A stretch of 64,000 nt of DNA, taken from contig NZ_JAFMPM010000006.1 of the NCBI RefSeq assembly GCF_017349355.1, positions 1,364,001 to 1,428,000 on the forward strand, in the 5' to 3' direction. Below are positions 2,958 through 61,211 of this stretch, in pieces. Both the position numbers and the translations under genes were made by a program. This DNA is from Thiothrix fructosivorans. GTDB lineage: Bacteria; Pseudomonadota; Gammaproteobacteria; Thiotrichales; Thiotrichaceae. The notes beneath the pieces are model-generated. The model was given only the letters and a program-made list of their open reading frames with translations, searched no databases and had not been told where the DNA came from. Positions within the stretch are counted from its first letter, which is position 1; each line of letters opens with the position of its first letter.

Positions 2958-2958
2958 C

Positions 2959-6004: not shown

Positions 6005-6006
6005 AA

Positions 6007-14186: not shown

Positions 14187-14245
14187 AAGTGTCCCCTTTA
14201 GGTAAAATGCCCTTTGCCGTTGATGCAATAAATTTATACTTGTGA

Positions 14246-14295: not shown

Positions 14296-14316
14296 TCGGC
14301 GGGGGGAGTTATCTCT

Positions 14317-14580: not shown

Positions 14581-14584
14581 CACG

Positions 14585-14911: not shown

Positions 14912-14951
14912 GACTAGCCCCCGAAATTTGCCCGACGTAAGACCGTACTGG

Positions 14952-14967
14952 ATTATTCCTGAATAAT
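14952..14967. promoter_or_regulatory. 16-bp palindrome between CARF gene and membrane-protein gene
   Basis: Perfect inverted repeat ATTATTC-CT-GAATAAT in the 89-bp gap between the NE0113 copy 2 stop (15001) and the 108-aa gene start (14911). It may be an operator or a weak terminator; no T-run follows. Confidence 0.4.
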
Positions 14968-15000
14968 GGCGTGGTGTGCCGTGATGGCGGTCACATTTCG

Positions 15001-18494: not shown

Positions 18495-18519
18495 ATCGTT
18501 TCTCCTCTTAAAAGTGTCA

Positions 18520-19704
18520 TTAAATCGCTTCAACTGCCAATGCAACGCCTTGACCACCGCCGATACACAGGGTTGCCAGACCTTTTTTCGCGCCCGTACG
18601 CTTCATGCCGTGCAACAGCGTGACCAGTACCCGCGCACCGGATGCACCAATCGGATGACCCAACGCAATCGCGCCACCGCTGACGTTCACTTTGCTCAGG
18701 TCAAAACCGAGGCTTTCGTTAACTGACATCGCTTGCGCCGCGAAGGCTTCGTTTGCTTCGATCATGTCGAGATCCGCCACGCTCCAACCGGCTTTTTCCA
18801 AGCACTTGGTGGTCGCAGGGATAGGGCCAGTACCCATGATCGCCGGGTCAACGCCTGCGCTAGAGAAAGCCACGATGCGTGCCATCGGGGTCAAACCCAG
18901 TTCAGCCGCTTTGGATGCTGTCATGACGATGACTGCCGCCGCGCCGTCGTTGATGCCGGAAGCGTTGCCCGCTGTAACCGTGCCGTCTTTCTTGAACGCA
19001 GGGCGCAGTTTGCCGAGGGATGCAGCGGTGGTGCCAGCGCGTGGGAATTCGTCCGTATTGAAGACCAGTGGCTCGCCTTTACGCTGGGGGATCACGACGG
19101 GGATAATTTCATCGTTGAATGCGCCCGCTTTTTGTGCTGCTTCAGTTTTTTGTTGCGAGCTAGCGGCGAATTCGTCTTGCGCTTCACGGCTGAAACCGTA
19201 TTGACTGGCGATATTTTCAGCGGTCATGCCCATGTGATAATCATTGCTGGCACACCAAAGACCGTCTTTAATCATGGTGTCGACCATTTTCCAGTCGCCC
19301 ATTTTCTGACCGTTACGTGAGTTGGGCAGGACGTGTGCGGAAGCGCTCATGGTTTCCTGACCACCCGCAATCACGATGTCCGCATCGCCACAAGCCACAG
19401 CTTGATACGCTAAGTGAACGGCTTTCAAGCCACTGCCGCAGACTTTGTTGATTGTCATCGCGGGGACTTCAACGGGTAAACCAGCCGATAAAACCGCTTG
19501 ACGTGCTGGATTTTGCCCCACGCCTGCCGTCAAAACTTGACCTAAAATAACCTCATTGATTTGTTCAGGTTTCAAACCAGAACGTTCCAATAGCCCTTTG
19601 ATGACGGTTGCGCCGAGTTCAGAAGCAGGGATGGCGGCAAGTGAACCGCCGAAAGTACCAAGTGCAGTTCTGCCAGCGGCTACGATAACAATATCTTCAC
19701 GCAT
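18520..19704 (-). CDS. phaA: Acetyl-CoA acetyltransferase PhaA
   Basis: 394 aa from the ATG at 19704 (AGGAG 7 nt upstream), normal thiolase II length. [11 protein letters not shown] holds the nucleophilic Cys near 89. [11 protein letters not shown] holds the His and CIGGGQGVA the second Cys near the end. It condenses two acetyl-CoA to acetoacetyl-CoA, the first step of PHB synthesis. It heads the phaA-phaB-(phaR) unit, divergent from phaE-phaC. Confidence 0.95.
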
Positions 19705-19892
19705 GAAGCGTTCTCCTAGGGTGTAAAATAGCTCAAACTTTATGATATATGTGCAAGATGTCAACAATAAGCTGATAAGTATTGGGTTGGCAAGCCATGA
19801 AATACGGGAATGTCAACATTGTTGCGACGCACAAAATAGCATGTTAAGCTCTGAAAAGGCAATGTTTTTATACGCGGAGGGTGGGTACTATA
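19705..19892. promoter_or_regulatory. Divergent phaA / phaE control region
   Basis: 188 bp. Two direct repeats, ATGTCAACAAT (19758-19768) and ATGTCAACATT (19810-19820), lie 52 bp apart, about five helical turns. The second runs into TTGTTGCGAC, giving an imperfect GTC/GAC-flanked inverted repeat. They are candidate PhaR sites; no strong sigma70 promoter was picked out. Confidence 0.4.
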
Positions 19893-20831
19893 ATGGCAGA
19901 GTGGTCCGAAGAAATGATGAGAAATTGGTCTGATGCCCAACGTCGTTATTGGGATGCTTGGTCAGATCTGTCAAAAATGGGGCAAATGAATGCTCAACCC
20001 GCCATGGCGACCTCTGCGTGGACACAAAGTCTAGAACAATGGTGGAAAGCCGTTAGCCCACACTCCGCCCCCGGCGCATCCACCGATGCTTTCCAACGCA
20101 TGGTCGAAATGGGCAAGATTTACATGAATCTTGCTGAAAATGCTTACAACTCCCAACAAGCGGGTAAGTCCGGTAACGATACCATCACCGCGTGTATGGA
20201 TGCGCTGGAAACGGGCTTCCGGCAGCCTTTTAATACGCACGGTTTTGGCGTGGGTCAGTCAGCACTGGATAGCTGGCAGCGTGTGCTCAATAGCATGGGG
20301 ATGCAATCCGTGCAGCCCTCCGCTAATTGGAGTGAGCAACTCAATAAAATGCTGGCTACCCCTTCCGTTGGTTTCAACCGCGAATCGCAAGAACGTTTGC
20401 AAGCCTTGGCAAAACTGGGCGGTAACTATCAGGATGCGATGGATGATTATCTGAAAGCCTTCGCCAAACAAGGGTTGGAATCCGTGCAAGCCTTGCGTGA
20501 ACGGGTTGAAGCCATGCGTCAAGCGGGGCAGAGTATCCATTCCGTGCGTGAATTGTATGACTTGTGGGTGGAGGTCAACGAACAGGTGTATGCCAAATTT
20601 GCGATGACCGATGAGTATCAAGTGGTGTACGGTGATTTGGTCAATGCGTTGATGGAACTCAAGCAAGGCATCAATGCCGAGCTGGATACGGTGTATGCTT
20701 CTGCTAACTTGCCCAGTCGCAAAGAACTGAATGCTGCGTTCGAGAAACAGCAGATCATGCGCCGTGAAAATCGTGCGCTGCGTAAGCAGGTTGAGGAACT
20801 CGCCCGTAAGGTTGATGCGTTGCTAGCCTGA
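19893..20831 (+). CDS. phaE: Class III PHA synthase subunit PhaE
   Basis: 312 aa from the ATG at 19893 (GGAGG 12 nt upstream; a GTG at 19881 touches the ribosome site and is less likely). MAEWSEEMMRNWSDAQRRYWDAWSD at the start and the RENRALRKQVEELARKVDALL coiled-coil end are typical of PhaE. It has no catalytic residues of its own; it forms the active heterodimer with PhaC. Residues 205-255 (VREL-YDLWVEVNEQVYAK) are the conserved PHA_synth_III_E core. 29 nt separate it from phaC. Confidence 0.95.
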   Translation: MAEWSEEMMRNWSDAQRRYWDAWSDLSKMGQMNAQPAMATSAWTQSLEQWWKAVSPHSAPGASTDAFQRMVEMGKIYMNLAENAYNSQQAGKSGNDTITACMDALETGFRQPFNTHGFGVGQSALDSWQRVLNSMGMQSVQPSANWSEQLNKMLATPSVGFNRESQERLQALAKLGGNYQDAMDDYLKAFAKQGLESVQALRERVEAMRQAGQSIHSVRELYDLWVEVNEQVYAKFAMTDEYQVVYGDLVNALMELKQGINAELDTVYASANLPSRKELNAAFEKQQIMRRENRALRKQVEELARKVDALLA

Positions 20832-20860
20832 TCAGAACTGGATATTCAAGGAGAACGAAC

Positions 20861-21922
20861 ATGCCGTTTCAAATGCGTCCAGATGACATTCTGAACGAAG
20901 TTAAAACCTTCAATGAAAAACTCGCACAAGGTATGACCAATCTGCTGGGGGTCGGTGAGATTTCTACAGGTGTTACGCCGTTTGAAGTGGTGTATACCGA
21001 AGACAAGCTTAAGCTGTTGCATTACCTCGGTGCTAACGAGCCGACCAATACCGTGCCGTTGTTGATCGTGTACGCATTGGTAAACCGTCCTTATATGACA
21101 GATATTCAGGAAAATCGCTCGACCATTAAAGGCTTGCTGGATGCGGGGCAGGATGTGTACCTAATCGACTGGGGATACCCCGATGCGTCTGATCGTTACT
21201 TGACCATTGACGACTACCTCAACGGTTATTTGGATAATTGCGTGGATAAAATCCGTGCGCGTCATGGCGTGGATGCGGTCAACCTGTTGGGGATTTGCCA
21301 AGGTGGGGCGTTTAGCTTGTGCTATAGCGCCATGCACTCTGCAAAAGTCAAAAACCTGATTACGATGGTTACGCCTGTGGATTACCACACGCCGGATAAT
21401 ATGCTGAGCCATTGGGTACAAAACGTCGACATCGACCAACTGGTCAATACCACTGGCAATATTCCGGGCGAAATGCTTAATTGGACGTTCCTCAACTTAA
21501 AGCCCTACCAATTGATGGGGCAGAAGTACCTCGGTATGGTGGATGTGATGGGTGATAGCCAAAACCTGAAAAACTTCATGCGTATGGAAAAGTGGATTTT
21601 CGATAGCCCCGATCAGGCGGGTGAAACCTTCCGCCAATTCATCAAGGACTTTTTCCAGCAAAACAAGCTGCTGAAAGGCGAAGTGCAGATTGGCGATTAC
21701 ACGGTTGACCTGAAAAACATCACTGCGCCGATCATGAATATCTTTGCGGAACAGGATCATCTCGTACCACCGGCTGCGTCTCGTGCCTTGAAAGGTGCAA
21801 CCAGTACAGCGGATTACACCGAGTTCTCTTTCAAAGGCGGTCACATCGGTATTTATGTCAGCGGCAAAGCGCAAAAGACGATTCCGCCCGCGATTGGTGA
21901 GTGGTTGACTGCCCGTAGCTAA
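20861..21922 (+). CDS. phaC: Class III PHA synthase subunit PhaC
   Basis: 353 aa, the short class III type. LLGICQGGAF near 145-154 is the lipase-like box with catalytic Cys. NIFAEQDHLVPP carries the catalytic Asp and GGHIGIYVSG the catalytic His. It polymerises 3-hydroxybutyryl-CoA at the granule surface. AGGAG lies 6 nt before the ATG. The class III type (PhaE-PhaC) is usual for purple sulfur bacteria and Thiothrix-like organisms. Confidence 0.96.
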   Translation: MPFQMRPDDILNEVKTFNEKLAQGMTNLLGVGEISTGVTPFEVVYTEDKLKLLHYLGANEPTNTVPLLIVYALVNRPYMTDIQENRSTIKGLLDAGQDVYLIDWGYPDASDRYLTIDDYLNGYLDNCVDKIRARHGVDAVNLLGICQGGAFSLCYSAMHSAKVKNLITMVTPVDYHTPDNMLSHWVQNVDIDQLVNTTGNIPGEMLNWTFLNLKPYQLMGQKYLGMVDVMGDSQNLKNFMRMEKWIFDSPDQAGETFRQFIKDFFQQNKLLKGEVQIGDYTVDLKNITAPIMNIFAEQDHLVPPAASRALKGATSTADYTEFSFKGGHIGIYVSGKAQKTIPPAIGEWLTARS

Positions 21923-45143: not shown

Positions 45144-45656
45144 ATGCAGTCATTGGAAAATCTGGTCGGTCAATTACAACTTACGCTGCATTACACCCGT
45201 GATGCGGGGCTGTGCCGGGTCAATGCAGTTCATCTTCACTCCAATCGTCTGTGCCTGAATGCCCATTTTTTGACGGGAAAATCCGTTGAGCTTGCCCCTA
45301 AACTCACCGGAATGCTGTTTAGTTTAGCAACGTGGGCACACATGGTGAGTTGCCTCGACAGTTCCCCCCCTGTTCCTGTTACCGTCGTTGCAATCGGTGG
45401 GCTTGAACGGATGGCGTTGCTGCCAACGGCGCGGGGTCTGCTCGTCCACCGTGTGGTGCAAGTCGACGGTTTGATTTGCACCTATCAAATCGTCGCCCCC
45501 ACCGAATGGAATTTCCATCCGCAAGGTTCGCTGTACTCAATGCTCAGCAGCTTACAAGCCAAAAACGCGCTGGAATTACGTACCAAAGCCAAAGCCTTAA
45601 TCACTGCGCTTGATCCTTGTGTGGCTTACCAATTGGAGATTATCCCCGATGCATGA
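45144..45656 (+). CDS. HupK-like hydrogenase assembly protein
   Basis: 170 aa. The C-terminal half (VAPTEWNFHPQGSLYSMLSS to LDPCVAYQLEI) mimics the C-terminus of [NiFe]-hydrogenase large subunits but keeps only one Cys of the Ni-binding DPCxxC. That is the hallmark of HupK, a scaffold thought to help build the Fe(CN)2CO unit. It is shorter than typical HupK. It overlaps hypA by 8 nt and starts the hyp unit. Confidence 0.65.
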   Translation: MQSLENLVGQLQLTLHYTRDAGLCRVNAVHLHSNRLCLNAHFLTGKSVELAPKLTGMLFSLATWAHMVSCLDSSPPVPVTVVAIGGLERMALLPTARGLLVHRVVQVDGLICTYQIVAPTEWNFHPQGSLYSMLSSLQAKNALELRTKAKALITALDPCVAYQLEIIPDA

Positions 45657-50121: not shown

Positions 50122-50135
50122 CAGCAGTATAAATT

Positions 50136-50630
50136 TCACACCCCGCCACTATGCACCGTCGCGTAGTACAGTTTCTCCAGCTCATTTTTATGCTTGGTTT
50201 CTTCATTCGCAAGGTACAGGAACAGGTCGTGGATCGGCCCCGCTTCCGTGCCTTGCGCCAAGGCGTGGTATTGCTCCATCGCCGCATGTTCGCGCCGCAA
50301 GGCATACTGTAACACCGCCTGATCGTCCGGCTGTTCGCCAAGGTCGGGCAGGTGGATGCAGTCGGAAAACTTGTGGTCACTGGTAGGCCGTTCCACTTCA
50401 ACTTTGAGTTGCTGCTCCAGATCGTCACGCGCTGCCATTTGGGTAAACAGGTCGTAATGCTCTTGTTCTTCTGTCGCCAGTTCTTCCACCAGATAACGGA
50501 TACTTTTGTGTACCTTGGGAATCAGGTCGGTGTAGAAATCGCGGGCAGTGCGTTCAAACTCGGTTGCCACTTCCAGGATTTCCTTGAGGGTGGTTTTGCT
50601 TTGCAGCCGTTGGATGCTGGCTTCGCTCAT
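50136..50630 (-). CDS. Ferritin-like (rubrerythrin-type) diiron protein
   Basis: 164 aa from the ATG at 50630, overlapping the upstream stop (ATGA). Four-helix carboxylate pattern: VATEFERTARDFY, ATEEQEHYDLF (E-x-x-H), REHAAMEQYHAL and ANEETKHKNELE (E-x-x-H). No rubredoxin domain. It probably reduces peroxide or oxygen to protect the Fe-S-rich complex encoded upstream, as rubrerythrins do. It closes the 13-gene operon. Confidence 0.85.
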   Translation of the reverse strand: MSEASIQRLQSKTTLKEILEVATEFERTARDFYTDLIPKVHKSIRYLVEELATEEQEHYDLFTQMAARDDLEQQLKVEVERPTSDHKFSDCIHLPDLGEQPDDQAVLQYALRREHAAMEQYHALAQGTEAGPIHDLFLYLANEETKHKNELEKLYYATVHSGGV

Positions 50631-52429
50631 GCGGTTGCCTCCTGTGGGGTAAGAGCGCGGTGGATGCTGGTGGCGACGCGGTGGCCGTCGGCAACAGCGT
50701 TGATGACATCGGGGCCTTTGACGCAATCGCCTGCTGACCACAGCCAGTTTTCCGAAGTGCGTCCGTTCGGGTCAATCTGGATGCGTCCACGGTTCCATTC
50801 CAGTTTTTCGGTGAGTGCATCGCCGAGCAGGCTGACATCGGCCATTTGACCGATGGCTTCGACGATCATTTCACCTTCGTGGATTTGCTCGTCTGCCGGG
50901 TCGTATTTTGGGGCGAAGCGGCGTTCTGCATCGAATATCGACAAGACTTTCCAGGTTTTTAGGCCAAGCAGCTTGCCGTTGTCGTCGATCACGCAGGCTT
51001 GTGGGCCACGGCTGTCGAGGATGTTGATTTGCTCTTCCAGCGATTCCTTGATTTCCACCGGATCGGCGAGGAAATGCGCCTTGTCTTCCAATGCGGTCAG
51101 GGTCACGCGGATTTCGCCGTAGTGCTGCAATTGCAGGCGTGCCATGCTGCGGGCAATGTCCATCGCCACGTTGCCGCCGCCGATCACGACCATGGATTTG
51201 GGTACGTCAATCGTTTCGCCAGCGGTAATCTGGCGCAGCAGGTCAACCGCTTTGCGTACCTGTGGGTGGTCGGAACCGGGAATGCGGGTGGAACGCCCTT
51301 GATGCAAGCCGATTGCCAGCACTACTGCGTCATAATCGGCTTCCAGTTGCTGCATGGTAATGTCCGTGCCAACCCGCTGGTTGTATTTAATTTCCACACC
51401 CATTGCGGTGATCACGGCAATGTCTCTGTCCAACGCGTTGTAAGGCAAGCGGTATTCGGGGATGCCGTAGCGTGTCATGCCGCCACCCGCTGCTTGCGCT
51501 TCATAGACCGTGACCGCGTGACCCAAACGGGCAAGATCAAACGCCGCCGTCAGACCCGCAGGCCCCGCCCCAATAATGGCAACTTTCTTGCCCGTCGGGG
51601 CAGCCGGTTTGCCAATTAATTCAATGACTTTTTCTTGCGGCACTTGATCAATGATGTGGCGTTTGAGCCAGCGGATGGCAATCGGATCGCCTTCGTGCCG
51701 TGCCGCACACGAATCTTCGCAACAATGCGTACACACCCGCCCGCACACTTGCGAAAACGGGTTGGTTTCGTACAGCAATTGTACCCCGCGTTCGTAATCG
51801 CCGTCCCGCACCGCCTTGATGTAGTCGGGAATCGCCATGTGCGCAGGGCAAGTGGCAATGCACAAGCCGCAAGATACGCAACGATCAGCTTCCAGTTTGG
51901 CTTGTTCGATGTTGTAACCTTGGACGATTTCGACAAACGAATCCAGCCGCGCTTCTGGGTGCAGTTCTGGCATTTCCTCGCGTGCCACGGGCATCAGATG
52001 CTTTTCATCATGACGCTGGTAGCCGAGTTCGGCATTGTCCCAATATTTTTTGTCCACGCCGGGGGTAAAACGGAACAGGTCGGGGTCGCTTTCCACCCAT
52101 TTGTATTCATTGGACATGGTGAGCGAGCCGGTCATGCACACGTCCACACACAGCGCACACCAGCAGCACCGCCCGTAGTCGATACGCGGGCGCAAGCCGG
52201 AATCACCTTGCACCGCCGGAATGCCTTCTACCGGCAGCATGTCAATCGCACCGTTTTGGCAAATGGTTTCGCAGGTTCCGCAGCCGATGCACTTGTCCAT
52301 GTCATTCTTGTGGAAGCCGCGATAACGCGCCGCACCGGGGCGTTCATTGAGCGGGTCTTTGATCGTTACCGGGTCGCGGAACAGGTTTTTCCAAGCGGTA
52401 AACGGGGATAGTACGTCACTGATACTCAT
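50627..52429 (-). CDS. NuoI-like ferredoxin fused to GltD/NfnB-type flavoprotein
   Basis: 600 aa. Residues 45-100 are a NuoI/MbxN-like pair of 4Fe-4S motifs (CIGCGTCETIC and CCWCALCVDVC). Residues 180-250 are the GltD-type Fe-S region (CVSCGLCIATCP; CGRVCTHCCEDSC). FAD binding is at VAIIGAGPAGLTAAFDLA near 285 and NAD(P)H binding at SMVVIGGGNVAMDIARS near 412. It should pass electrons between NAD(P)H and the membrane complex. In archaeal mbx operons the N subunit lacks this flavoprotein part, so the fusion is unusual. Confidence 0.85.
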   Translation of the reverse strand: MSISDVLSPFTAWKNLFRDPVTIKDPLNERPGAARYRGFHKNDMDKCIGCGTCETICQNGAIDMLPVEGIPAVQGDSGLRPRIDYGRCCWCALCVDVCMTGSLTMSNEYKWVESDPDLFRFTPGVDKKYWDNAELGYQRHDEKHLMPVAREEMPELHPEARLDSFVEIVQGYNIEQAKLEADRCVSCGLCIATCPAHMAIPDYIKAVRDGDYERGVQLLYETNPFSQVCGRVCTHCCEDSCAARHEGDPIAIRWLKRHIIDQVPQEKVIELIGKPAAPTGKKVAIIGAGPAGLTAAFDLARLGHAVTVYEAQAAGGGMTRYGIPEYRLPYNALDRDIAVITAMGVEIKYNQRVGTDITMQQLEADYDAVVLAIGLHQGRSTRIPGSDHPQVRKAVDLLRQITAGETIDVPKSMVVIGGGNVAMDIARSMARLQLQHYGEIRVTLTALEDKAHFLADPVEIKESLEEQINILDSRGPQACVIDDNGKLLGLKTWKVLSIFDAERRFAPKYDPADEQIHEGEMIVEAIGQMADVSLLGDALTEKLEWNRGRIQIDPNGRTSENWLWSAGDCVKGPDVINAVADGHRVATSIHRALTPQEATA

Positions 52430-53598
52430 CGTTCGATCTCCGGCGGGTAGGTGTGCAGCGACACCAGCAAAGCGGCAACATCAGAAATATTGGCGTTGAT
52501 GACCATGCGTTCAAACAGCGCAATCGAATGCGTGTAAGACGGCCCGCGCACATTCACCCGGCGCGGGTAGCCGCTGCCATCGGTGACGAGGTAATAACCG
52601 TATTCGCCGCGTGAACATTCGCCACGGACATAGGTTTCACCGCGCGGAATTTTCCAGTGCAACACATTGGGCAACTTGGTCATCACCGCGCCCGTTTTGG
52701 GCAGTCTGCTCAAAATTTGCCGGATCAGATCCAGCGACAGCAGCAAGTCACGGCGGCGTACATCCGCACGGGTGTAAATGTCGGAATCCTTGCCCGTCAC
52801 CGCCTCAAATTCCAGTTCGGGGTAGACCAGATAAGGCTGGTCTTTGCGCACGTCTTTGGCGACTCCGGCGGCGCGGGCATTTGGGCCGGTAATGCCGTAA
52901 CTGTCCAGCCATGCGGTATCAATCACGCCCACGCCGACCGCACGTTTCTTGAACACGGCATTGTGGAACATGACCCGATCCACATCCGCCAGCACGCTTT
53001 CGATTTCGCGCAAGGTTTCTTCCATGCGCCCGGCAAACCCGTCTGGCAGGTTATCGCGCACCCCGCCGGGGATAATGAACATGTGGTAAATGCGTGCGCC
53101 AGTCAGCTCCTCGAAACGGTCGAGCATCAGGTCACGCACATACGTTGTCCATTGCCCGATCACGCCTTGCCCGAAGGCACCGGCTTGCCCGCCGAGGTAC
53201 ATCAGGTAGCTGTTGACGCGCCCCATTTCCAGAATCAGGGTACGGATCCAGTGCGCCAGTTCGGGGATTTCCAACCCGGCGAGTTCTTCGACGGCAGCGG
53301 CGTAGCAGTATTCGTTGAAATCGGGTTCGGGGACGCAAATGCGGCACACAATCGGGAAGCACTGCATGAAGGTGCGGCGTTCCATCAACTTTTCGAAGCC
53401 GCGATGCAAATAGCCGACGTGGGTGGTGGCATCCACCACTTCGTCGCCGCACACGGTCAGTTCAATCGCCATATTGCCGGTAATGCCGGGGTGTTGCGGG
53501 CCTTGCCACAGTTTCAGGTATTTGCCGGAAGTGAGGTCAATGTCCAGTGTGCCGTCGGCTTTTTTCTGCGGGTATTGGCTGCGGTCTAACTCAAACAT
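52426..53598 (-). CDS. NuoD/MbxL-like large subunit without a NiFe site
   Basis: 390 aa, 49-kDa/hydrogenase large-subunit fold (GPQHPGITGNMAIEL, THVGYLHRGFEKLMERRT, AVEELAGLEIPELAHWIRTL). A CxxC is present in the N-terminal metal region (VCRIC, Cys85 and Cys88). The C-terminal DPCxxC of hydrogenases is replaced by LLVSLHTYPPEIER, the complex-I-like form without Cys. Nickel binding is thus not expected. This half-retained pattern resembles MbxL/MbsL, where the site handles polysulfide or quinone-like chemistry in place of H2. Confidence 0.85.
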   Translation of the reverse strand: MFELDRSQYPQKKADGTLDIDLTSGKYLKLWQGPQHPGITGNMAIELTVCGDEVVDATTHVGYLHRGFEKLMERRTFMQCFPIVCRICVPEPDFNEYCYAAAVEELAGLEIPELAHWIRTLILEMGRVNSYLMYLGGQAGAFGQGVIGQWTTYVRDLMLDRFEELTGARIYHMFIIPGGVRDNLPDGFAGRMEETLREIESVLADVDRVMFHNAVFKKRAVGVGVIDTAWLDSYGITGPNARAAGVAKDVRKDQPYLVYPELEFEAVTGKDSDIYTRADVRRRDLLLSLDLIRQILSRLPKTGAVMTKLPNVLHWKIPRGETYVRGECSRGEYGYYLVTDGSGYPRRVNVRGPSYTHSIALFERMVINANISDVAALLVSLHTYPPEIER

Positions 53599-54127
53599 CG
53601 CCTTTGTCCCCGTACAGTTGTTGTTTCATGTGCGCTGCCGGGTCACGGGTTTCGCGCCCTGGGCGTTCGCGGTAAGTGGCGCGTGAATATTCGAGGGTAT
53701 CGAAATCGCGGCGGTAGGGCGGGGCGGCGTTCCAGCCTTCCAGAATGAAATCGTCCATCAGGCGTGGGCTACCGGGGAAGTCGATGCCGAACATTTCGCG
53801 CAATTCGCGTTGGTAAGTCGCTGCGGCTGCCCACAGGTCGTGGATGCTTTCCATGCTGGCATTATCGCGGGCAATCATTACCCGCAAGCCTAAATCTTGG
53901 CATTTGGCGCGGTTGTTGATCAGGTAAGTGAGCTGAAATTGCCCATCTTCCAGCCAGTCCACTGCCGTTAACAGCACCAGATGGGTGAAACCTTCCTGAT
54001 CACGCAAATGCCGTAACAGGGCGTGCAGGCGTACCGCTTCCACTGTAATAAAGGCGAGGTCGGCGCGTTGCCGGGTGAATTCGCCCAGTGAGAAACGTTG
54101 TGTGAGGGTGTCGTAAAGTTGCTGCAT
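53591..54127 (-). CDS. NuoC/MbxK-like 30-kDa subunit
   Basis: 178 aa from MQQLYDTLTQRF at 54127 with GGTGAG upstream. WAAAATYQRELREMFGIDFPGSPRLMDDFILEGW matches the NuoC signature E-R-E-x-x-D-x-x-G-I-x-F-x-G, with ELREMFGIDF here. The C-terminus carries the Arg/Tyr-rich tail that contacts the large subunit. Overlaps the large-subunit gene by 8 nt. Confidence 0.9.
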   Translation of the reverse strand: MQQLYDTLTQRFSLGEFTRQRADLAFITVEAVRLHALLRHLRDQEGFTHLVLLTAVDWLEDGQFQLTYLINNRAKCQDLGLRVMIARDNASMESIHDLWAAAATYQRELREMFGIDFPGSPRLMDDFILEGWNAAPPYRRDFDTLEYSRATYRERPGRETRDPAAHMKQQLYGDKGDV

Positions 54128-54132
54128 AATGC

Positions 54133-54774
54133 TCACCAGTTGTAGTCCGGCATGTCCCAATCGTGGATGACGCTTTTCTGGTTGGCTTTGTACCAGTCAA
54201 AGTTGGCGGCGTATTGGTTTGCGCCTTCGGCTTTGCCAGCGCGGATGATTTTTTTCAACTCTTCAAACCCTGCCAGCAAGGCTTCCGGGCGCGGCATACA
54301 GCCCGCGATATACACATCCACCGGCAAATAATCATCCAGTCGCTTGATGGTGTTGTAGGAATCCCAGTACATGCCGCCGTTAATGGTGCAAGACCCTAAC
54401 CCCACCACGTATTTCGGTCCTTGCATCTGCTCGTAGGAACGGATCACGCGCTTGAGGGTTTTCACCGACAAATAGCCAGAAATCACAAACAGGTTGGACT
54501 GGCGCGGGGTAGGCCGCCACTGAATGCCATAACGGTAAGCGTCGAAACGCGGTGTCATTAGCGGGCGCATTTCGATCGCTCCGCAACCCGTGCCAAAGCC
54601 CAGAATCCACAGCGATTCGGAACGCGCCCAGTTGAACAGCTTTTCAATAATCGCGGTGTACGCAGGCGGTTGCACCGTGGGGCCTGCTTCGCAGTAATAA
54701 TCGCGCAGCGGGTCAATTTCGATTTCCTGACCATCCGGCGTTTTTACAATGCGTTTGAGTAATTCTTCTTTCAT
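54133..54774 (-). CDS. NuoB/MbxJ-like Fe-S subunit with a missing ligand
   Basis: 213 aa, PSST fold. Where NuoB has tandem cysteines (TACCAVEM), this has TGCGAIEM: Cys64 followed by Gly65. The other two ligands are present in GLGSCTINGG (Cys129) and AGCMPRPEA (Cys159). Three of four N2-type ligands are visible, so the cluster is either 3-Cys, ligated by another residue, or absent. Cys28 lies in the N-terminal extension. It should sit between the membrane arm and the large subunit. Confidence 0.88.
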   Translation of the reverse strand: MKEELLKRIVKTPDGQEIEIDPLRDYYCEAGPTVQPPAYTAIIEKLFNWARSESLWILGFGTGCGAIEMRPLMTPRFDAYRYGIQWRPTPRQSNLFVISGYLSVKTLKRVIRSYEQMQGPKYVVGLGSCTINGGMYWDSYNTIKRLDDYLPVDVYIAGCMPRPEALLAGFEELKKIIRAGKAEGANQYAANFDWYKANQKSVIHDWDMPDYNW

Positions 54775-54778
54775 AACC

Positions 54779-55684
54779 TTACACCAGTACCACGGCGAGG
54801 ATGCCCAACGGCACTGCCCAGATTAAAAACCAGCGGATCGACTGTTCCACCCGGAAGCGTGGGAATACCACCCCGACAAACGCCGACACCATGTAAATCA
54901 GGAATACCTTGAGGAAAAATTCCGGCCAGCTTCCCGCCCCGCCAAAGAACAGGTTCATGTACACCACGATCTTGGCGACCGGGAACAACGCCCGGTTGGT
55001 CTGCATCATCGCCAGAAACGAGGAATGGTATTCGGTCGGCGGGCCAATGGGGATTTCCTGCGGCGCAAGTACCACGTCAAACGGTGGGCGCATCATCGAA
55101 CCGAGGAACGACATCATCGCCGCCGCCACCGCTAACGGATTGGTAAATAATGTCCAGTGCAACACCCCACCTTGCTGTGCCGCTACAATCTCGGTCACAG
55201 AAAGCGTTTGGTATTGCAAGGCCACCGCAAACACCGCTAGTGCAAACGGCAATTCCGCCGCCGTCATCTGCGACAAGCCACGGGTAATGCCAATAGCGGA
55301 ATAGGGATGCCCGCTTTCCGCCGCACCCAATGCCATGCCCAGCGTGCCAAAGAACACAAAATACAGCGCGAGGATCAAATCGCCCGCAAACGAAAAGTTG
55401 GCGAACATTTCCGAGCCGTAAATGCTCGGCACAAACAGCAACAAGCCCACCCCGCCGGACAGCCGGAACACCGGCCCCAGATAGAACATCACCCCGTGGG
55501 TAATGGAGGTACGCAGCGCATAGTTTTTGATCATGTCAATGTAATTCTGCCAAATGGGGATACCATGCCGCCGCCCCACCCGTGCGCCGATTTTTTGTAC
55601 CAAAGCCGTCATTAGCAAGCCGTAGTTGATGACAATAAACAATGTCAGCAACGCCCACGGGATTCTCATCCATTCAAATTCCAT
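54779..55684 (-). CDS. NuoH/MbxM-like membrane subunit
   Basis: 301 aa from the ATG at 55684, which overlaps the preceding stop (TGATG). About eight membrane helices. Conserved NuoH features include ESGHPYSAIGITRGLSQMTAAELPFAL and APQEIPIGPPTEYHSSFLAM. It joins the Fe-S arm to the antiporter-like arm and forms the quinone-like cavity and ion path. Confidence 0.9.
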   Translation of the reverse strand: MEFEWMRIPWALLTLFIVINYGLLMTALVQKIGARVGRRHGIPIWQNYIDMIKNYALRTSITHGVMFYLGPVFRLSGGVGLLLFVPSIYGSEMFANFSFAGDLILALYFVFFGTLGMALGAAESGHPYSAIGITRGLSQMTAAELPFALAVFAVALQYQTLSVTEIVAAQQGGVLHWTLFTNPLAVAAAMMSFLGSMMRPPFDVVLAPQEIPIGPPTEYHSSFLAMMQTNRALFPVAKIVVYMNLFFGGAGSWPEFFLKVFLIYMVSAFVGVVFPRFRVEQSIRWFLIWAVPLGILAVVLV

Positions 55685-58600
55685 CACAAGCCCCCCATCC
55701 ACAACAGGTAGACGATAATCACAAAGGCGAGCAGGTGAATGGCGTAAGTCTGCCCATTCCCGGTATACATCCGCCGTAAAATATCTGCCGCCGAATGCAG
55801 CAATTCCGTGAGGGTTTCCCAAAAAATTGTTACCAGCGGCTGGGTCAAAAAGCCCAGTGCCTTGCGGTACGGTGCGAAGAAGTTCCAGGCAAAATGGGTG
55901 GTTTCCGGGCGGAACGGGCGTTCACCGGCAAACACAATATTGAACTGCTTCACCGGCTGCGCCCTGCGGTTGACGAACAGCAACCAAGCAAACAGCGTGG
56001 CAAAAATCACCCCGATAATCAGCATGATCGACACCGGACTCCAGTAACCGAATTCGCTGGTAATGGTCAACCCTGCCCAATCCAGCCCATTCTGCCCACC
56101 AAAGAACGGCGCAAGGTAAGCATCCACATGCCGCAACGCCATGCCCGGAATCAGCGCGAACACCAACAAGGCAACCACAAAAATCATCTGCGGCAACACA
56201 ATCCAGAACGGTGCTTCTTTCACGGTGCGCAATTCATCTTTCAACTGCCCCAAGAAAATGGTGTGAATCAGGCGGAACAGGTACAGGAACGCAATCGGCC
56301 CCGCAAGGAAAATAATCACCATCGGCAAACGGTATTCCGCCGTCATAATCGCATTGTAGAAAATCCAGCGTCCGCCAAACCCGGAAAGCGGCGGCACACC
56401 CGACACCGCAATAATCCCGATCAAGGTTGCAATGAACGACAGCGGCATCAGCGTAATCAAGCCGCCCATGCGGTACATATCGCGTGTGCCGGTACGTTTG
56501 GCAACCCCGCCCACTGACAGGAACAACATCGACTTGTAAATGTAATGGTTAATGACAAACATCAAGGCCATCAGCCAGCCCAGATGGTTCATCATTGCCA
56601 GCCCAAACAGCGCGTAACCCATTTGCCCGATGGAAGAATAAGCCAGCAAGCGTTTCGCATCTTCTTGGAAAATTGCTAGCAAGTTCCCAATCAGTGCCGA
56701 AATCGCCCCAATCCACAGCATCACGTGGGTGAGTTCTACCCCGTACAATTGCTGCTTGCCCATTGTCATCAGCAACACGAACAGCCCGAACAGCCCCGCT
56801 TTCAGCAAGATACCGGACACCAGCGGTGATACATCGGTTTCCGCTTCCGCATGTGCGCCGGGCAACCAGATATGCACACCCACCGCCGCCGTTTTGGTCA
56901 TGAAACCAATCGCCAGCAGCGCAAATACCCACGGTGCAAACGGTTCTGCCACCTGTGCCAACGCCGCAATTTTAAAGTCCGGCACACCTTGCGCCGCCAG
57001 TGCAAACCCCGCCAGCATCAGGAATGCCCCGCCCAGCGAGAACACAATATACGACAGCGCGTGTGGTTCAGAATGCTTGCCGCGCAGAATCAGGAAATAC
57101 GAACCCACCGTCAGCAATTCCCACGCCGCAAAAAACGCAAACGAGGTTTTGGCTTCAATCAACATCGCCAAGCCCGCAAACATCAGCATTGCTGCCGGGT
57201 AGAATCCCACCCGCCGTTGCTGCGTCTGGAAACTTGCCAGCAAAATAATCGCACCACCCGGCAACATTACCGCCGCAAAAATCAATTGCAGCGCATCGTA
57301 ACTGGGGTAATGCAGGTAAAACCAACCGACCAGCCCAGCAATTGCCAACCCGTTTTTGAGCTTGGCAGGTAGCCAGTCCAGCGGCAAAAACAGCAGCGCA
57401 AACAACAAAGGGATGGCGTGCAACAGATTGCCTTGCCCGGAGAGTTCGCCCCACAAATAAGCCAATAACCACGCAACCACTACCGCACTCAAGGCAACAT
57501 CTTCCTTGATGGCTTGCAGCAATAATCCCGCTTGCGGCTGTTCACGCTTAAGCACGTAGCCAAACCAGCGGAACAAATACGCCGCTTCCAGCAATGCCCC
57601 AAACAGGATCAGCCCCAACAACCACAATTGCCCGTTTGCTGCCAGTGCGTGCGCCAGTTCCCACTTGGCATAAAAGCCGGGGAAGGGCGGCAAACCCACC
57701 AACAAGGCAATAAAGGTGACAAACGCAAATACCAGTACCGGATGCCCGCGTAACGCAGCCCAGTCACCCAGGCCCCGCGCTGCCACCAACCCGGAAAGCC
57801 AGAATAAGCCCGCTTTGGCAACCGCATGAGCCAGCAAGATACCGCCTGCCACAAAATAATACTGTTCCCCCAGCAAATCGCGCTGCCCGATTACGGTCAG
57901 GATCAGCCCCACCTGTGCTATCGAGGAATAGCCCAGCAACCGCCGGTCATTGTCTTGCACCAAGGCAAAAATATTGGCAACCACAAAGGTTACAATCCCG
58001 ATGGCACTTGCCAGTGGCAACCATTGCGCCCCGCCAATCAGCAACAGCTTGTCCGCCGCGTACACGGTTGCTGCCCCGGTTGCTGCCGAAAACAGTGCCG
58101 CAAATGCAGGGTGTGCCGATTCATAAATGTCCAGCCCCCAGCCGTTGGCAGGGAAGGGTTTCAACTCTGCCAGCACCGCCATCAACATTAGGAAAAACGC
58201 CAACGCCCCGCCTTTGAACAAGTCGGCTTGCGCTGCTGCCATGCCGTCGATGTTGAGTGTGCCAGTGGCGTGGTAGGCAAATACCATTCCCACCAGCATC
58301 AGGATGGACACCAGTTGCGACACAATCAGGTATTTCAAACCAGCCCCCAACGCCCGCCGATCCGCTGACAGCAGCACCAGCCCACCGGTAGAAATCACCA
58401 CCAGTTCCATGAACACAAACAGGTTGAACAGGTCACGGGTGAAAATCACCCCGCAGGTGGCCATCACGAAAATCAGCAGCACCGCCATTGCCCGCCGCCC
58501 CTGTTTGAACAGGGTATCGCGCATGTACAGCGCGGCGTGCAAACCCGTCAACGCCATCAGTAAGGCCAGTGACGCTTCCGCCAGCCCGACCCGGAAATTG

Positions 58601-58815
58601 ATCGCAAACGGTGGTTGTGTCCCTGCGGTGAAGATTTCAACCGGCGCAGCCCCTTGCAGCGCAAACGCCCACAGCCAGCTTCCGGCAATCCAGCCCATGA
58701 GCGCGAGTGCGAGGAGGGTTACGCCATAGGCTGCCCGCTGCCATTTTTCCGGCAACAGGCCGAGCAGGAACGCTGCCCCCAGCCCGACGGCAATGATGTA
58801 GAGTGGGCTTACCAT
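55684..58815 (-). CDS. Fused tandem MrpD/NuoM-like antiporter subunits
   Basis: 1043 aa from the ATG at 58815 (AGGGA 8 nt upstream). Two full Proton_antipo_M units are joined: about 1-480 (VFMELVVISTGGLVLL with TM5 Glu; AVLAELKPFPANGWGLD with TM7 Lys) and about 490-960 (FAAWELLTVGSYFLILRG; GFMTKTAAVGVHIWLPGAHAEAETDVSP). Both keep the Glu/Lys pairs needed for ion transport. It replaces the separate H and H' subunits of mbx operons. A C-terminal amphipathic and membrane helix resembles the NuoL lateral arm. Confidence 0.9.
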   Translation of the reverse strand: MVSPLYIIAVGLGAAFLLGLLPEKWQRAAYGVTLLALALMGWIAGSWLWAFALQGAAPVEIFTAGTQPPFAINFRVGLAEASLALLMALTGLHAALYMRDTLFKQGRRAMAVLLIFVMATCGVIFTRDLFNLFVFMELVVISTGGLVLLSADRRALGAGLKYLIVSQLVSILMLVGMVFAYHATGTLNIDGMAAAQADLFKGGALAFFLMLMAVLAELKPFPANGWGLDIYESAHPAFAALFSAATGAATVYAADKLLLIGGAQWLPLASAIGIVTFVVANIFALVQDNDRRLLGYSSIAQVGLILTVIGQRDLLGEQYYFVAGGILLAHAVAKAGLFWLSGLVAARGLGDWAALRGHPVLVFAFVTFIALLVGLPPFPGFYAKWELAHALAANGQLWLLGLILFGALLEAAYLFRWFGYVLKREQPQAGLLLQAIKEDVALSAVVVAWLLAYLWGELSGQGNLLHAIPLLFALLFLPLDWLPAKLKNGLAIAGLVGWFYLHYPSYDALQLIFAAVMLPGGAIILLASFQTQQRRVGFYPAAMLMFAGLAMLIEAKTSFAFFAAWELLTVGSYFLILRGKHSEPHALSYIVFSLGGAFLMLAGFALAAQGVPDFKIAALAQVAEPFAPWVFALLAIGFMTKTAAVGVHIWLPGAHAEAETDVSPLVSGILLKAGLFGLFVLLMTMGKQQLYGVELTHVMLWIGAISALIGNLLAIFQEDAKRLLAYSSIGQMGYALFGLAMMNHLGWLMALMFVINHYIYKSMLFLSVGGVAKRTGTRDMYRMGGLITLMPLSFIATLIGIIAVSGVPPLSGFGGRWIFYNAIMTAEYRLPMVIIFLAGPIAFLYLFRLIHTIFLGQLKDELRTVKEAPFWIVLPQMIFVVALLVFALIPGMALRHVDAYLAPFFGGQNGLDWAGLTITSEFGYWSPVSIMLIIGVIFATLFAWLLFVNRRAQPVKQFNIVFAGERPFRPETTHFAWNFFAPYRKALGFLTQPLVTIFWETLTELLHSAADILRRMYTGNGQTYAIHLLAFVIIVYLLWMGGL

Positions 58816-59165
58816 TTCAAATCCCTGCATTTGGAAATATCGAGCGTGCCTTTTTCTTCGTACAACTTGTAGGCATACGTCAGCATCAAGGCTGTTACCC
58901 CCAGCCCAATCACGATGGCGGTCAGCACCAACGCTTGCGGCAATGGGTCAATAATGCGGGTGACGGCATCCGTCATCGGTACGGCTTCATCCAGAATCGG
59001 CGCAGTGCGCCCGCGCATATACCCCACCGCTACCAGCACCAGATTCACGCCGGTATTGGCGACGCTGAACGAGACAATGATCCGCAAGATATTACGGTTG
59101 GTGAGTGCGCCATACAGCCCCATCAGGATGAGGATGAAGCCTGTTGCCATTGCGATCCAGTCCAT
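58809..59165 (-). CDS. mrpC: MrpC/NuoK-like subunit
   Basis: 118 aa, three membrane helices. LMGLYGALTNRNILRIIVSFSVANTGVNLVLVAVGY and ALVLTAIVIGLGVTALML are typical MrpC/NuoK segments. It couples ion movement between the antiporter and B/D-type subunits. It overlaps the fused antiporter gene by 7 nt. Confidence 0.9.
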   Translation of the reverse strand: MDWIAMATGFILILMGLYGALTNRNILRIIVSFSVANTGVNLVLVAVGYMRGRTAPILDEAVPMTDAVTRIIDPLPQALVLTAIVIGLGVTALMLTYAYKLYEEKGTLDISKCRDLKW

Positions 59166-59863
59166 TATGATTGCTCCGTTTCTGCCAGATGGGTCAGCAT
59201 GGAAGTGAATTCAGCCCCGACTTTGAGACCGATAAAGCTGTAAATGATGGGCATGACACCCGCTGAAAACAGTGTGCCGAATGCCCCGTTGGGCAGCACC
59301 CGGCTATCGAGGAAGCCGCCTGCATACACCAGCCCCAGCACCCCCAGCCCGATGAAAAACAAGCCCGATACCGCTTCCATGACCGCGATCAGGCGGTGAC
59401 TAAAGCGTTTCAACGGATCTGTCAGCAACAACAGCAACGCCGCCGATGCCACAATTGCCCCGCCCTGAAAACCGCCGCCTGGGGTCAAATGCCCGTTGAC
59501 GAACACATACACGCCCAGCAATAAAATCAGCGGCACTAACAGGCGGCTACCCGTGGTCAGCAATTCCCCTGCCGCCGGTAACTGGCGTTGCAATGCGCGG
59601 TGTTTACGTCCACGCGCCAACACCATGCCAATAATAGTGGCGGTCAAAAACAGCACCGTGACTTCACCCAGCGTATCCAGACCCCGGTAAGTGACCACAA
59701 TCGCGGTGACGATATTGGCAGCACCCAAATCCTGCGCGGTGTGTTCCGCGTAGTAACGTGCTGTCAGGTTGAGTTCCTCGCTTGGCGTATAGCCCAGCAA
59801 CAGGTCGGCAAAGATTGCCCCCAAGCCCAGCAACAGCAGGAAAACCGCAAAACGTCGGATCAT
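59165..59863 (-). CDS. mrpB: MrpB-like subunit with N-terminal MbhE-like part
   Basis: 232 aa. Residues 1-80 (TYRGLDTLGEVTVLFLTATIIG) correspond to the MbhE or MrpA C-terminal piece. Residues 100-220 (GVYVFVNGHLTPGGGFQGGAIVASAALLLLL) are the MnhB domain. The two are separate in Mbh but joined here. Confidence 0.88.
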   Translation of the reverse strand: MIRRFAVFLLLLGLGAIFADLLLGYTPSEELNLTARYYAEHTAQDLGAANIVTAIVVTYRGLDTLGEVTVLFLTATIIGMVLARGRKHRALQRQLPAAGELLTTGSRLLVPLILLLGVYVFVNGHLTPGGGFQGGAIVASAALLLLLTDPLKRFSHRLIAVMEAVSGLFFIGLGVLGLVYAGGFLDSRVLPNGAFGTLFSAGVMPIIYSFIGLKVGAEFTSMLTHLAETEQS

Positions 59864-60111
59864 GATTGGCCTCCGCGCACGCGCCCTAGCACAAAGAAAA
59901 ACAGGAAGGTAGTCAAGCCGCTGCCAATCGCCGCTTCGGTCATTGCCACATCAGGGGCAGCGAGAAACAGGAATAGCACCGACGCAAACAGGCTCACCAA
60001 CCCTGCCGCCAACATCGCGGTGGCAATCCGGGTGGCGCGAATCGTTAGCCATGCCACGCCAATCATGGCAACCGCCAGCAATACGCCGATGCTCAGTAAT
60101 ACGGTATTCAT
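59860..60111 (-). CDS. MbhD/DUF4040 subunit
   Basis: 83 aa, three membrane helices. FLFLAAPDVAMTEAAIGSGLTTFLFFFVL is the MbhD (PF13244-type) signature with the conserved D-V-A-x-T-E-A. It corresponds to an internal part of MrpA. ATGA overlaps on both sides. Confidence 0.9.
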   Translation of the reverse strand: MNTVLLSIGVLLAVAMIGVAWLTIRATRIATAMLAAGLVSLFASVLFLFLAAPDVAMTEAAIGSGLTTFLFFFVLGRVRGGQS

Positions 60112-60446
60112 GCTTTGCCCTCTTGGTCTTCTGCCAACTGGTCAATCTTGGTCAATGGGGTTTTTTGCGCTCCGCGTCGGTGGGCAGTGTTCGCCAGCAC
60201 CTGAGCGGAAACGGGGTTAGTGAAGATCAGGAATACCCCAATCAGCAATAGTTTCCAGCCCCATGCGGGTTGCAAACAAGCTGCCCCGGCAAGGGTTAAC
60301 AAGGTTCCCAATGTGGTGGTTTTTGTGCCTGCCTGAATGCGGTTGAAAACATCCGGCATCCGCAGCAGCCCCAAGCTACCGAACAGCAGAAAGGCCGCGC
60401 CGCTGACCAGCAGCAAGCCACCGATAATGTCGATTAGCAGTCCCAT
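60108..60446 (-). CDS. mrpG: MrpG-like subunit
   Basis: 112 aa, three membrane helices. FLLFGSLGLLRMPDVFNRIQAGTKTTTLG is the MnhG/PhaG signature. Minor antiporter subunit needed for assembly; C-terminal 25 residues are polar. Confidence 0.92.
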   Translation of the reverse strand: MGLLIDIIGGLLLVSGAAFLLFGSLGLLRMPDVFNRIQAGTKTTTLGTLLTLAGAACLQPAWGWKLLLIGVFLIFTNPVSAQVLANTAHRRGAQKTPLTKIDQLAEDQEGKA

Positions 60447-60706
60447 CAGAACCTGCCCTCCAGATAGCGGGCAATGGCGATTACCCCCAGGAATGACAAC
60501 AGCGCGTAAACCAACGCCGCATCCAGATAAATGCCCCGGTTTTCCACCAAGGCCACCAGCACGATGAAGGTAATCGAAATCACCGTCAGCACGTCAAACG
60601 CAACCACACGGTCTACCCGCGATGGCCCGCGCACAAACCGCGCCAGTGCCAGCAGGAATGCCAGCCCGGCAAGCGTTCCGGCAATGGCAATCAACACCTC
60701 AACCAT
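60446..60706 (-). CDS. mrpF: MrpF-like subunit
   Basis: 86 aa, three membrane helices. RFVRGPSRVDRVVAFDVLTV is the MnhF signature (R-G-P-x-x-x-D-R-x-x-A-x-D). Its stop overlaps the mrpG start. Confidence 0.92.
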   Translation of the reverse strand: MVEVLIAIAGTLAGLAFLLALARFVRGPSRVDRVVAFDVLTVISITFIVLVALVENRGIYLDAALVYALLSFLGVIAIARYLEGRF

Positions 60707-61211
60707 ACATCACCTCAAGGTAAGACTCGAACCCGCTGACAATTTCCGCCGTGGCTGCCTCAATATCCGTTGCACCCAGCGTGACGCAGTGTATGTACAG
60801 CCATTCACCCGCCATCTCGACGGTTAGCGTTCCCGGTGTCAGCGTAATGGAATTCGCCAGCATCAGCCGCCCCATGCGGCTTTTTAGCCGGGTGCGCACT
60901 TTAACGATACCCGGCGTAATCGGGAGTGAGGGCGACAACACAATGGCAGCCATTTTCAGATTGGATTTGAACAGCTCCTGCAAGAAGTAGCCGTAGTAAC
61001 GGAAGCCCGCCACAATCGCTTGCGGGGTGAAGCGGAATTCGGTGAAAAACGACAGACCATCGCGGTAGAGCAGGGCGATGATTAATGATGCGACTGCGCC
61101 GACGATGAGGACATCAGTATCCAGCTTGCCGCTTAGCATTAGCCAGAATAACGTCAGGGTCGCAAACAGGATGACGGTATCGCGCCACTTGCTAGATTTG
61201 CCCGTACTCAT
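60699..61211 (-). CDS. mrpE: MrpE-like subunit
   Basis: 170 aa from the ATG at 61211 (GAGAAGAAG upstream; a GTG at 61229 overlaps that site). MnhE features: TLTLFWLMLSGKLD, FFTEFRFTPQAIVAGFRYYGYFLQEL and ANSITLTPGTLTVEM. First gene of the operon; no clear promoter was found in the 190-bp divergent gap to the Cys-cluster gene. Confidence 0.9.
   Translation of the reverse strand: MSTGKSSKWRDTVILFATLTLFWLMLSGKLDTDVLIVGAVASLIIALLYRDGLSFFTEFRFTPQAIVAGFRYYGYFLQELFKSNLKMAAIVLSPSLPITPGIVKVRTRLKSRMGRLMLANSITLTPGTLTVEMAGEWLYIHCVTLGATDIEAATAEIVSGFESYLEVMYG

Follow-up and report, generated by a model that had tools for sequence, protein, structure and literature searches.

The closest described relative of the system reported here is the sulfane reductase MBS (Mbx) of the archaeon Pyrococcus furiosus (PDB 6u8y), whose subunits are taken for comparison as listed in PMC7684303. 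The proximal cluster of MBS has three cysteine ligands and a free, catalytic iron that reduces polysulfide, in a chamber that is said to suit hydrophobic substrates, polysulfide among them; mutants without MbsJ C25 or MbsL C85/C385 remain active (PMC7684303). Bacterial Mbx is described in Thermotoga maritima, Caldanaerobacter and Thermoanaerobacter, spread by gene transfer (PMC4596419), and T. maritima mbxA rises with S0 (PMC9431562). These bacterial complexes are likened to the present one by description only, and their hosts are anaerobic thermophiles, unlike Thiothrix fructosivorans, in which a 13-gene minus-strand operon extends from 61211 to 50136 in a stretch of 64,000 nucleotides (contig NZ_JAFMPM010000006.1, positions 1,364,001 to 1,428,000), hereafter the window. 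By its sequence, the complex encoded by this operon, in a genome of 4.36 Mb, belongs to the Mbx/Mbs branch within the superfamily of complex I and the energy-converting hydrogenases. It carries an NAD-type flavoprotein fused to its N subunit and is found mostly together with dsrA, and it is read here as a candidate oxidoreductase between NAD(H) and sulfane sulfur.

The placement of the complex is based on its large subunit (L). In a maximum-likelihood tree of 39 rows, L forms a clade at 100/99 with P. furiosus MbsL and the L of a divergent Burkholderiales operon (L085), and complex I (the host's own NuoD included), the membrane-bound hydrogenase (MBH) and HycE all fall outside it. Only one archaeal MbsL was included, and its branch and several of the outgroup branches are long, therefore the clade is trusted but its inner order (95/79) is not. 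L is 43% identical to MbsL, 30–36% to three complex I sequences including the host NuoD, 28% to MbhL and 26% to HycE. The first-pass annotation of this DNA had proposed an Mbx/Mbs affiliation rather than one with complex I, MBH or formate hydrogenlyase, and the phylogeny against Mbh, Mbx/Mbs and Nuo, which was run on subunit L only, upholds that proposal. The locus had also been presented as an isolated archaeal-type oddity; instead it is a cassette widely distributed in Proteobacteria, and its derived features are fused antiporters, a fused NAD module, a rubrerythrin-like gene and changed cysteines. The window-type L clade mixes alpha-, beta- and gammaproteobacterial sequences with those of Magnetococcales, which suggests spread between lineages, and 20 aligned members of the clade are 74–92% identical to the window L.

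The genes of the operon, in the order of transcription, are as follows.

60699..61211, minus strand: mrpE-like, MbsA equivalent (PF01899, E 2.7e-37; ATG at 61211)
60446..60706, minus strand: mrpF-like, MbsB equivalent (PF04066)
60108..60446, minus strand: mrpG-like, MbsC equivalent (PF03334)
59860..60111, minus strand: MbhD-like, MbsD equivalent (PF13244)
59165..59863, minus strand: two-domain subunit of MbhE and MnhB, MbsE equivalent (PF20501 and PF04039)
58809..59165, minus strand: MrpC/NuoK-like, MbsG equivalent (PF00420)
55684..58830, minus strand: fused double antiporter of 1048 residues (phmmer: N half 6u8y_H, C half 6u8y_X)
54779..55684, minus strand: NuoH/MbsM-like membrane anchor (PF00146, E 6.9e-44)
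54133..54774, minus strand: NuoB/MbsJ-like subunit, J (best PDB match 6u8y_J, 2.2e-65)
53591..54127, minus strand: NuoC/MbsK-like subunit, K (PF00329)
52426..53598, minus strand: NuoD/MbsL-like large subunit, L (best PDB match 6u8y_L, 7.2e-97)
50627..52429, minus strand: fusion of 600 residues, NuoI/MbsN domain, Fer4_20 and GltD-like FAD/NAD domain (Pfam, PDB)
50136..50630, minus strand: rubrerythrin/ferritin-like protein (PF02915, E 6.6e-11; stop at 50136)

The genes, order, strand and coordinates had been read correctly before, but the end of the operon had not. The last gene listed was described as a plain NuoI/MbxN and is in fact the 600-residue fusion with Fer4_20 and a GltD-like FAD/NAD domain, and a thirteenth gene (50136-50630), the rubrerythrin-like one, belongs to what had been listed as a 12-gene operon; its ATG overlaps the stop of the fusion gene. 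The subunit set, with all of the Mrp-like small subunits and the MbsH/H' pair, is that of P. furiosus MBS, and among solved structures the L and J chains of MBS are the closest to those of the window. The order, A-B-C-D-E-G-H-H'-M-J-K-L-N, matches that of Pyrococcus mbx. A scan of genomes provided the loci used for comparison, which are the best 80 of 247 relatives. Of the 49 loci that have more than 8.6 kb of sequence before L, 48 carry all 12 genes in this order and in one direction, an arrangement far from chance, and the sole exception, L083, is cut by a contig end. A shorter locus below this length limit, L031, has J-K-L-N and the diiron gene, without a match to M or to an antiporter upstream.

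There are several differences from MBS. The separate H and H' of MBS are fused into one gene in the window type, and the stand-alone N of MBS, which receives electrons from ferredoxin, is replaced by an N fused to the GltD-like NAD module; because of this second fusion the window complex is not a strict MBS. In addition, MbsL C385 is replaced by Tyr and MbsJ C25 by Gly or Ala, and the window type has an additional C85 in L, an additional C28 in J and the rubrerythrin-like gene. The loss of C385 is the basis for classing the complex as a variant of Mbx/Mbs, this residue being diagnostic rather than defining since it is dispensable in MBS. Complexes of the Mbx/Mbs kind have already been described from archaea and from thermophilic bacteria, and the fusion protein is similar to a family that is named in the databases. 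Within limited listings of the open-licence literature, represented by excerpts, no Mbx/Mbs complex in proteobacterial sulfur oxidisers was recognised, nor any description, for Dsr proteobacteria, of a form that is linked to NAD, associated with a diiron protein and altered in its cysteines.

At the N-terminus of the fusion protein is the two-[4Fe-4S] NuoI/MbxN domain, followed by Fer4_20 and then by an FAD/NAD domain like that of GltD, NfnB and DsrL. Its best NCBIfam model is PRK13984, 'putative oxidoreductase', at 884.8 bits, which is below the cut-off of 946. The module of Fer4_20, FAD and NAD(P) domains is common to DsrL and the NfnB/GltD flavoproteins, with the difference that the ferredoxin domain of the window fusion is N-terminal and is the N subunit of a membrane complex, whereas DsrL has an extra one at the C-terminus (PMC7596348). 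In NfnB and DsrL-2 the motif YRR has been linked with NADP(H), and in DsrL-1 its absence has been linked with NAD(H) (PMC7596348). Residue counts here and below are from sequences covering at least 85% of the query, of which there are 80 for L, 71 for J and 70 for the fusion, plus the window. YRR is in none of the 71 fusion proteins, which have ALE (61), AME (5), CLE (3) or TRK (2) in its place; it is present in all five of the displayed PDB relatives, as read by eye. The window fusion is in this respect like DsrL-1, and NADH rather than NADPH is expected for most members on this motif argument, so that the module would in most cases be of the NAD(H) type. The DsrL-like protein of the host (L102:14644-16605) is also without YRR and shares 30% identity with the fusion across 442 residues.

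The residues around the predicted active site are largely those of MBS. Cysteines are present in J at the three MBS cluster positions (C64, C129 and C159) in all 72 sequences, and neither MBS nor the window type has a quinone or a Ni-Fe site. At the position of MbsJ C25 there is no cysteine in any of the 72, the window having G61, and where complex I has a tandem pair J has a single Cys. An extra invariant cysteine, C28, lies in an N-terminal extension of J in the motif DYYCEA or near it (72/72); it may either bind the cluster as a fourth ligand or belong to a thiol site, and the J of L085 has no cysteine in this place. In L the sequence is C85-R-I-C88-V-P-E, with C85 and C88 invariant in 81 of 81 (C-R-I/V-C). 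The hydrogenase motif RxCGxC aligns with R86-I-C88-V-P-E91, such that just its first cysteine is kept, and C85, three residues before C88, is an additional cysteine of a kind that MbsL and the L of L085 do not have. Of the four cysteines that are ligands in group 4 [NiFe] hydrogenases (RxCGxC ... DPCxxC) one is left. The C-terminal motif is HTYPPEIER, with Tyr384 at the position of MbsL C385 (81/81). T40 and V89 (81/81) stand at the Nqo4 quinone residues H38 and Y87, and the Glu of MBH is missing, as in MBS. Further conserved cysteines of L are C50 (81/81), C98 (80/81) and C328 (79/81). An AlphaFold model of L from 21 alignment rows had a mean pLDDT of 57.1 and was not used.

It had been suggested that L keeps only an N-terminal CxxC, as MbxL was said to do. 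That CxxC is out of register, C85/C88 being shifted against the hydrogenase motif, and the likeness does not hold, since MbsL of P. furiosus has retained a cysteine at both ends, and at the C-terminal one the window has Tyr384. Of the sequence features described for the MBS active site (PMC7684303) most are found here, namely the three cluster cysteines of J and the missing quinone His and Tyr. As the MBS mutants stay active, the loss of C385 in the window L is no argument against sulfane chemistry.

In the double antiporter, the C half retains E571, K646, K677, H762 and K766, with R821 where MbsH' has Lys, and by these residues it holds the glutamate and lysine set of pumps. The N half retains E142, K224, K339 and K389, and at the lysine of transmembrane helix 8 (TM8) of L085 and MbsH there is no Lys in 58 of 58 window-type sequences.

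The complex is found in a minority of related genomes. L is present in 10 of 51 Thiotrichales genomes, 8 of 16 within the genus, and in 3 of 399 in a Burkholderiales sample, one of these being the divergent form. The closest named record to the window operon among the best 80 is that of Thiothrix caldifontis, and no match to L at 1e-60 was found in a plasmid collection. Searches for dsrA (TIGR02064, E <= 1e-30) found it in 69 of the 80 carriers (27/29, 39/48 and 3/3), where L005-L007 are counted as dsrA-positive through G037, G046 and G045, the coordinates of which coincide with theirs. With carriers assigned to their class by record title, in Betaproteobacteria dsrA is in 18 of 20 carriers and 86 of 396 background genomes (p 5e-10), and in Alphaproteobacteria in 14 of 16 carriers and 4 of 288 background genomes (p 7e-19), the alphaproteobacterial background having been searched for dsrA only and not for L. 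The raw background counts are 89/399 for Burkholderiales and 5/289, the centre included, for Alphaproteobacteria. This association, together with the NAD-type module recognised by comparison with PMC7596348, lends support to the link between stored sulfur and NAD(P)H that was first suggested for this locus. The sulfur-globule proteins that had been placed elsewhere in the window were not found in it by a filter for Gly/Tyr/Pro/Asn-richness, or by Pfam among 59 of its open reading frames, with short frames partly covered.

An NAD(H) module on a catalytic and pumping core of the MBS type points to an ion-coupled NAD(H):sulfane-sulfur oxidoreductase. The complex is tentatively read as an ion-translocating, reversible enzyme of this kind, tied to sulfur oxidation of the Dsr type, a reading that falls only a little short of being evenly balanced. 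Its activity, substrate, direction and ion are inferred, as is a role for the rubrerythrin-like protein in this system. Electrons would pass between NAD(H), FAD and the [4Fe-4S] clusters of the GltD-like domain, from these to or from the two [4Fe-4S] clusters of the N domain and the proximal cluster of J, and there would be exchanged with polysulfide or persulfide in the chamber formed by L, J and M. This redox turnover would drive, or be driven by, the double antiporter of the MbsH-H' type and the Mrp-type module, with H+ or Na+ as the ion. The midpoint potential of NADH is about -0.32 V and that of polysulfide about -0.26 V, a gap of ~60 mV, as against ~200 mV between archaeal ferredoxin and polysulfide. 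With so small a gap the reaction would be near-reversible and its direction set by the membrane potential. In an energised, sulfur-oxidising cell, electrons from sulfide or persulfide would be raised to NAD+ by reverse electron transport, a use that fits the need of lithoautotrophs for NADH. In the dark or without oxygen, a cell with reserves of sulfur and carbon would pass electrons from NADH to sulfane sulfur with conservation of energy, which fits the use of stored sulfur as an electron sink in Chromatium okenii and Beggiatoa. In the excerpts of the papers concerned, the stored sulfur of C. okenii is 'possibly' reduced to H2S (PMC6374484), Beggiatoa 35Flor respires its stored sulfur (PMC4914600) and that of A. 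vinosum 'probably is reductively activated' (PMC3368242), the enzyme being unnamed in each case. The most specific form of the proposal is an enzyme that shuttles electrons between NADH and the sulfur store of Dsr bacteria, being an ion-pumping persulfide/polysulfide oxidoreductase in which the gained cysteines aid the cluster, and which serves for reduction in the dark or in anoxia and for quinone-free NADH formation when the cell is energised. Taken with all of these parts it is doubtful.

Several points weigh against an NAD(H):sulfane-sulfur oxidoreductase of Dsr bacteria. To our knowledge, no activity is known for any member of the window-type clade. Were the invariant C28 of J to close the cluster as a fourth ligand, as it may, the parallel with MBS would be weaker, and its presence lowers the likelihood of this function; TRK in two of the 71 fusion proteins indicates that the preference for NAD may not be universal. 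In Thiotrichales, dsrA is in 10 of 10 carriers and in 33 of 41 non-carriers, a difference that is not significant (p 0.33); the dsrA link therefore rests on the alpha- and betaproteobacteria, dsrA being common in Thiotrichales anyway, and the relatedness of the hosts is controlled in part only. There was no dsrA match in 11 of the 80 carriers, in genomes the completeness of which is not known, and three of the loci without one, L024, L030 and L037 (G498, G061 and G506, unclassified bacteria), form a close group. These three also have a more distant fusion protein (61–62%). Neighbour clustering, with clusters present in at least five loci, found no further conserved sulfur gene near the loci. 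Carriers are a minority of dsr-positive bacteria (10/43 in Thiotrichales and 3/89 in the Burkholderiales sample, one of them divergent), so that the complex is dispensable for sulfur oxidation by Dsr. For a purple sulfur bacterium, reduction of sulfur with H2 in the dark has been attributed to the HydSL hydrogenase (PMC10892978), and the window complex need not be the only route.

The rubrerythrin-like gene is the only widely conserved companion outside the block of complex genes in the neighbour clustering. Of the 71 loci that could be judged, 67 have a match to it, that in L030 being weak (28%), and it was not found in L024, L035, L037 and L045. In the Chromatiaceae loci L029, L048 and L049 it stands before mrpE and not after the fusion gene. 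Its product has weak similarity to the solved ferritin-like protein TM1526 (E 0.0011).

Eight loci from the same order, set against the window, indicate that the block of ~11 kb, the rubrerythrin-like gene within it, behaves as one mobile unit in Thiothrix. Similarity to L005, L088 and L089 is 91–96% from about 50134 to 61211 and then stops; similarity to L006, L007, L087 and L090 is 80–84%, ending at or slightly past the limits of the block, and L086 is similar in pieces at 77–80%. In L005, L088 and L089 the block follows gcvTH-like genes, with pqi-like genes further on (recognised by eye). In the window genome those flanks are side by side ~0.38 Mb away from the block, and the flanks of L005 and L089 are ~60 bases apart there (L109:13140 and 13200), which indicates that the gcvTH/pqi site is empty and that the block sits beside hyp genes instead. 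In L006 both flank regions are together on one side of the block, making this another place again. Matching of L005:228-345 and 1931-1977 to the window genome revealed a dispersed repeat of ~110 bases with dozens of copies in that genome. It is also present beside the block in T. caldifontis and might be linked to the movement of the block.

Other partners and functions can be weighed against NAD(H) and free sulfane sulfur. The partner may instead be a persulfide or trisulfide on a carrier of the Dsr pathway, such as DsrC, TusA or one of the glutathione type, with the new cysteines, C85/C88 of L and perhaps C28 of J, at work near the cluster in the manner of the dithiol/cluster site of ferredoxin:thioredoxin reductase. 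The association with dsrA and the invariance of C85/C88 and of C28 are consistent with this, as is the absence of C85 from MbsL and L085, but there is no structure that places C85 or C28 by the cluster, the chamber of MBS is suited to hydrophobic substrates such as polysulfide and the equivalent of C88 is not needed in MBS (PMC7684303). A carrier persulfide is considered unlikely on this evidence. Mbx has also been described as a ferredoxin:NADP oxidoreductase (PMC4596419), and under this older proposal the complex would be a ferredoxin:NAD(H) oxidoreductase in which the ion gradient makes low-potential ferredoxin, for example for nitrogenase. A match to nifD is above the cut-off in 22 of 40 carriers, and in Thiotrichales in 6 of 10 carriers as against 4 of 41 non-carriers (p 0.002). 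Within the genus the difference is not significant (6/8 and 4/8, p 0.61), carriers without nifD are common, and coupling in the superfamily is thought, by inference from the family, to need redox turnover in the L/J/M chamber; these points make the ferredoxin proposal distinctly unlikely. Nitrogenase as the partner in a main role is rejected, as nifD gives no match at E <= 1e-30 in the genome of the window.

Complex I shares the superfamily, the link to NADH and the pumping of ions with the window complex, the NuoD and NuoB models of NCBIfam also score on L and J, and the chamber is wide in both MBS and complex I (PMC7684303). A quinone-reducing variant with the GltD-like domain as its NADH input would account for these similarities, yet T40 and V89 stand in place of the quinone residues, J is without the tandem Cys, L is outside the NuoD clade and a normal complex I subunit is also present in the carriers. 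At least one further Complex1_49kDa match was found in 17 of 17 carriers examined (G176 included), from which the window complex is an extra one beside normal complex I. The quinone-reducing variant is accordingly quite improbable, and complex I proper is ruled out by the residues (T40/V89 and the single Cys), by the tree and by the lack of any NuoE, NuoF or NuoG gene in the block. The presence of the rubrerythrin-like gene in nearly all judgeable loci, its place inside the mobile block and its PF02915 match would also fit a system for redox stress or sulfur detoxification, with the rubrerythrin-like protein doing the actual work and the complex serving as source or drain of electrons. The gene is however not found in 4 of the 71 loci, the similarity to TM1526 is just weak, and an ion pump of 12 subunits would be a costly electron supply for a peroxidase, which leaves this function very improbable. 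For a formate hydrogenlyase or energy-converting hydrogenase, suggested by the hyp genes that adjoin the block in the window genome, there is hardly any likelihood left. One of the four Ni-Fe cysteines remains, L is outside HycE and MbhL, and a hydrogenase match (PF00374, E <= 1e-60) is missing from 6 of 39 carriers, so that a hydrogenase is not required. A functional tie to the hyp genes is likewise rejected, as these look to be accidental neighbours, the block being elsewhere in relatives.

The hyp cluster is headed by a gene at 45144-45656 for a protein of 170 residues that matches the C-terminal end only of the NiFe large subunit (24.7 bits, below the cut-off of 25.8), and which we take to be perhaps a HupK-like maturation protein; it is followed by hypB-, hypC-, hypD- and AIRS-type (hypE-like) genes. 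Large subunits like those of hydrogenase-4 that have apparently lost most of the Ni-Fe cysteines were seen in L103 (Rhodoferax-type, G079) and L104 (Magnetospirillum, G068), with two such genes near each other on opposite strands in L103. Elsewhere in the window there are genes for PHA synthase (PhaE and PhaC-like), thiolase and reductase at 17766-21922, and PHA as a carbon store could feed electrons to sulfur in anoxia. A type III-like CRISPR-Cas set, with two Cas_NE0113, Cas_APE2256, RAMP proteins, Cas10/Cmr2 and Cas6, is found at 615-17100.

The divergent Burkholderiales operon L085 (G176:C16:36000-54000) combines cysteines of the archaeal type with the NAD fusion and a diiron gene. It has the gene set of the window, including the fused N-GltD and rubrerythrin-like genes, and its genome is dsrA-positive. 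Its antiporters are separate (606 and 619 residues), unlike the fusion of the window, and its L and J hold the archaeal residue pattern, with SLDACPPEVDR, YCTGCG and no C85. As L085 retains these residues, the cysteine pattern of the window looks derived, and L085 itself seems to stand between archaeal MBS and the window type. The fusion protein of L085 is 58% identical to that of the window and its L is 47% identical, a hint that the modules have had separate histories.

Bacteria that store sulfur have to mobilise it and also to form NADH at low potential. In the excerpts of the accounts cited, reductive activation or respiration of the store is assumed with the enzyme unnamed, the hydrogenase of one purple bacterium aside. 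A conserved and mobile NAD-linked relative of the archaeal sulfane reductase, present mostly with dsrA, is a concrete candidate for this enzyme. Together, L085 and then the window type would also be intermediates on a branch near complex I, and such intermediates may be useful for the history of the modular assembly of ferredoxin-driven and NADH-driven machines.

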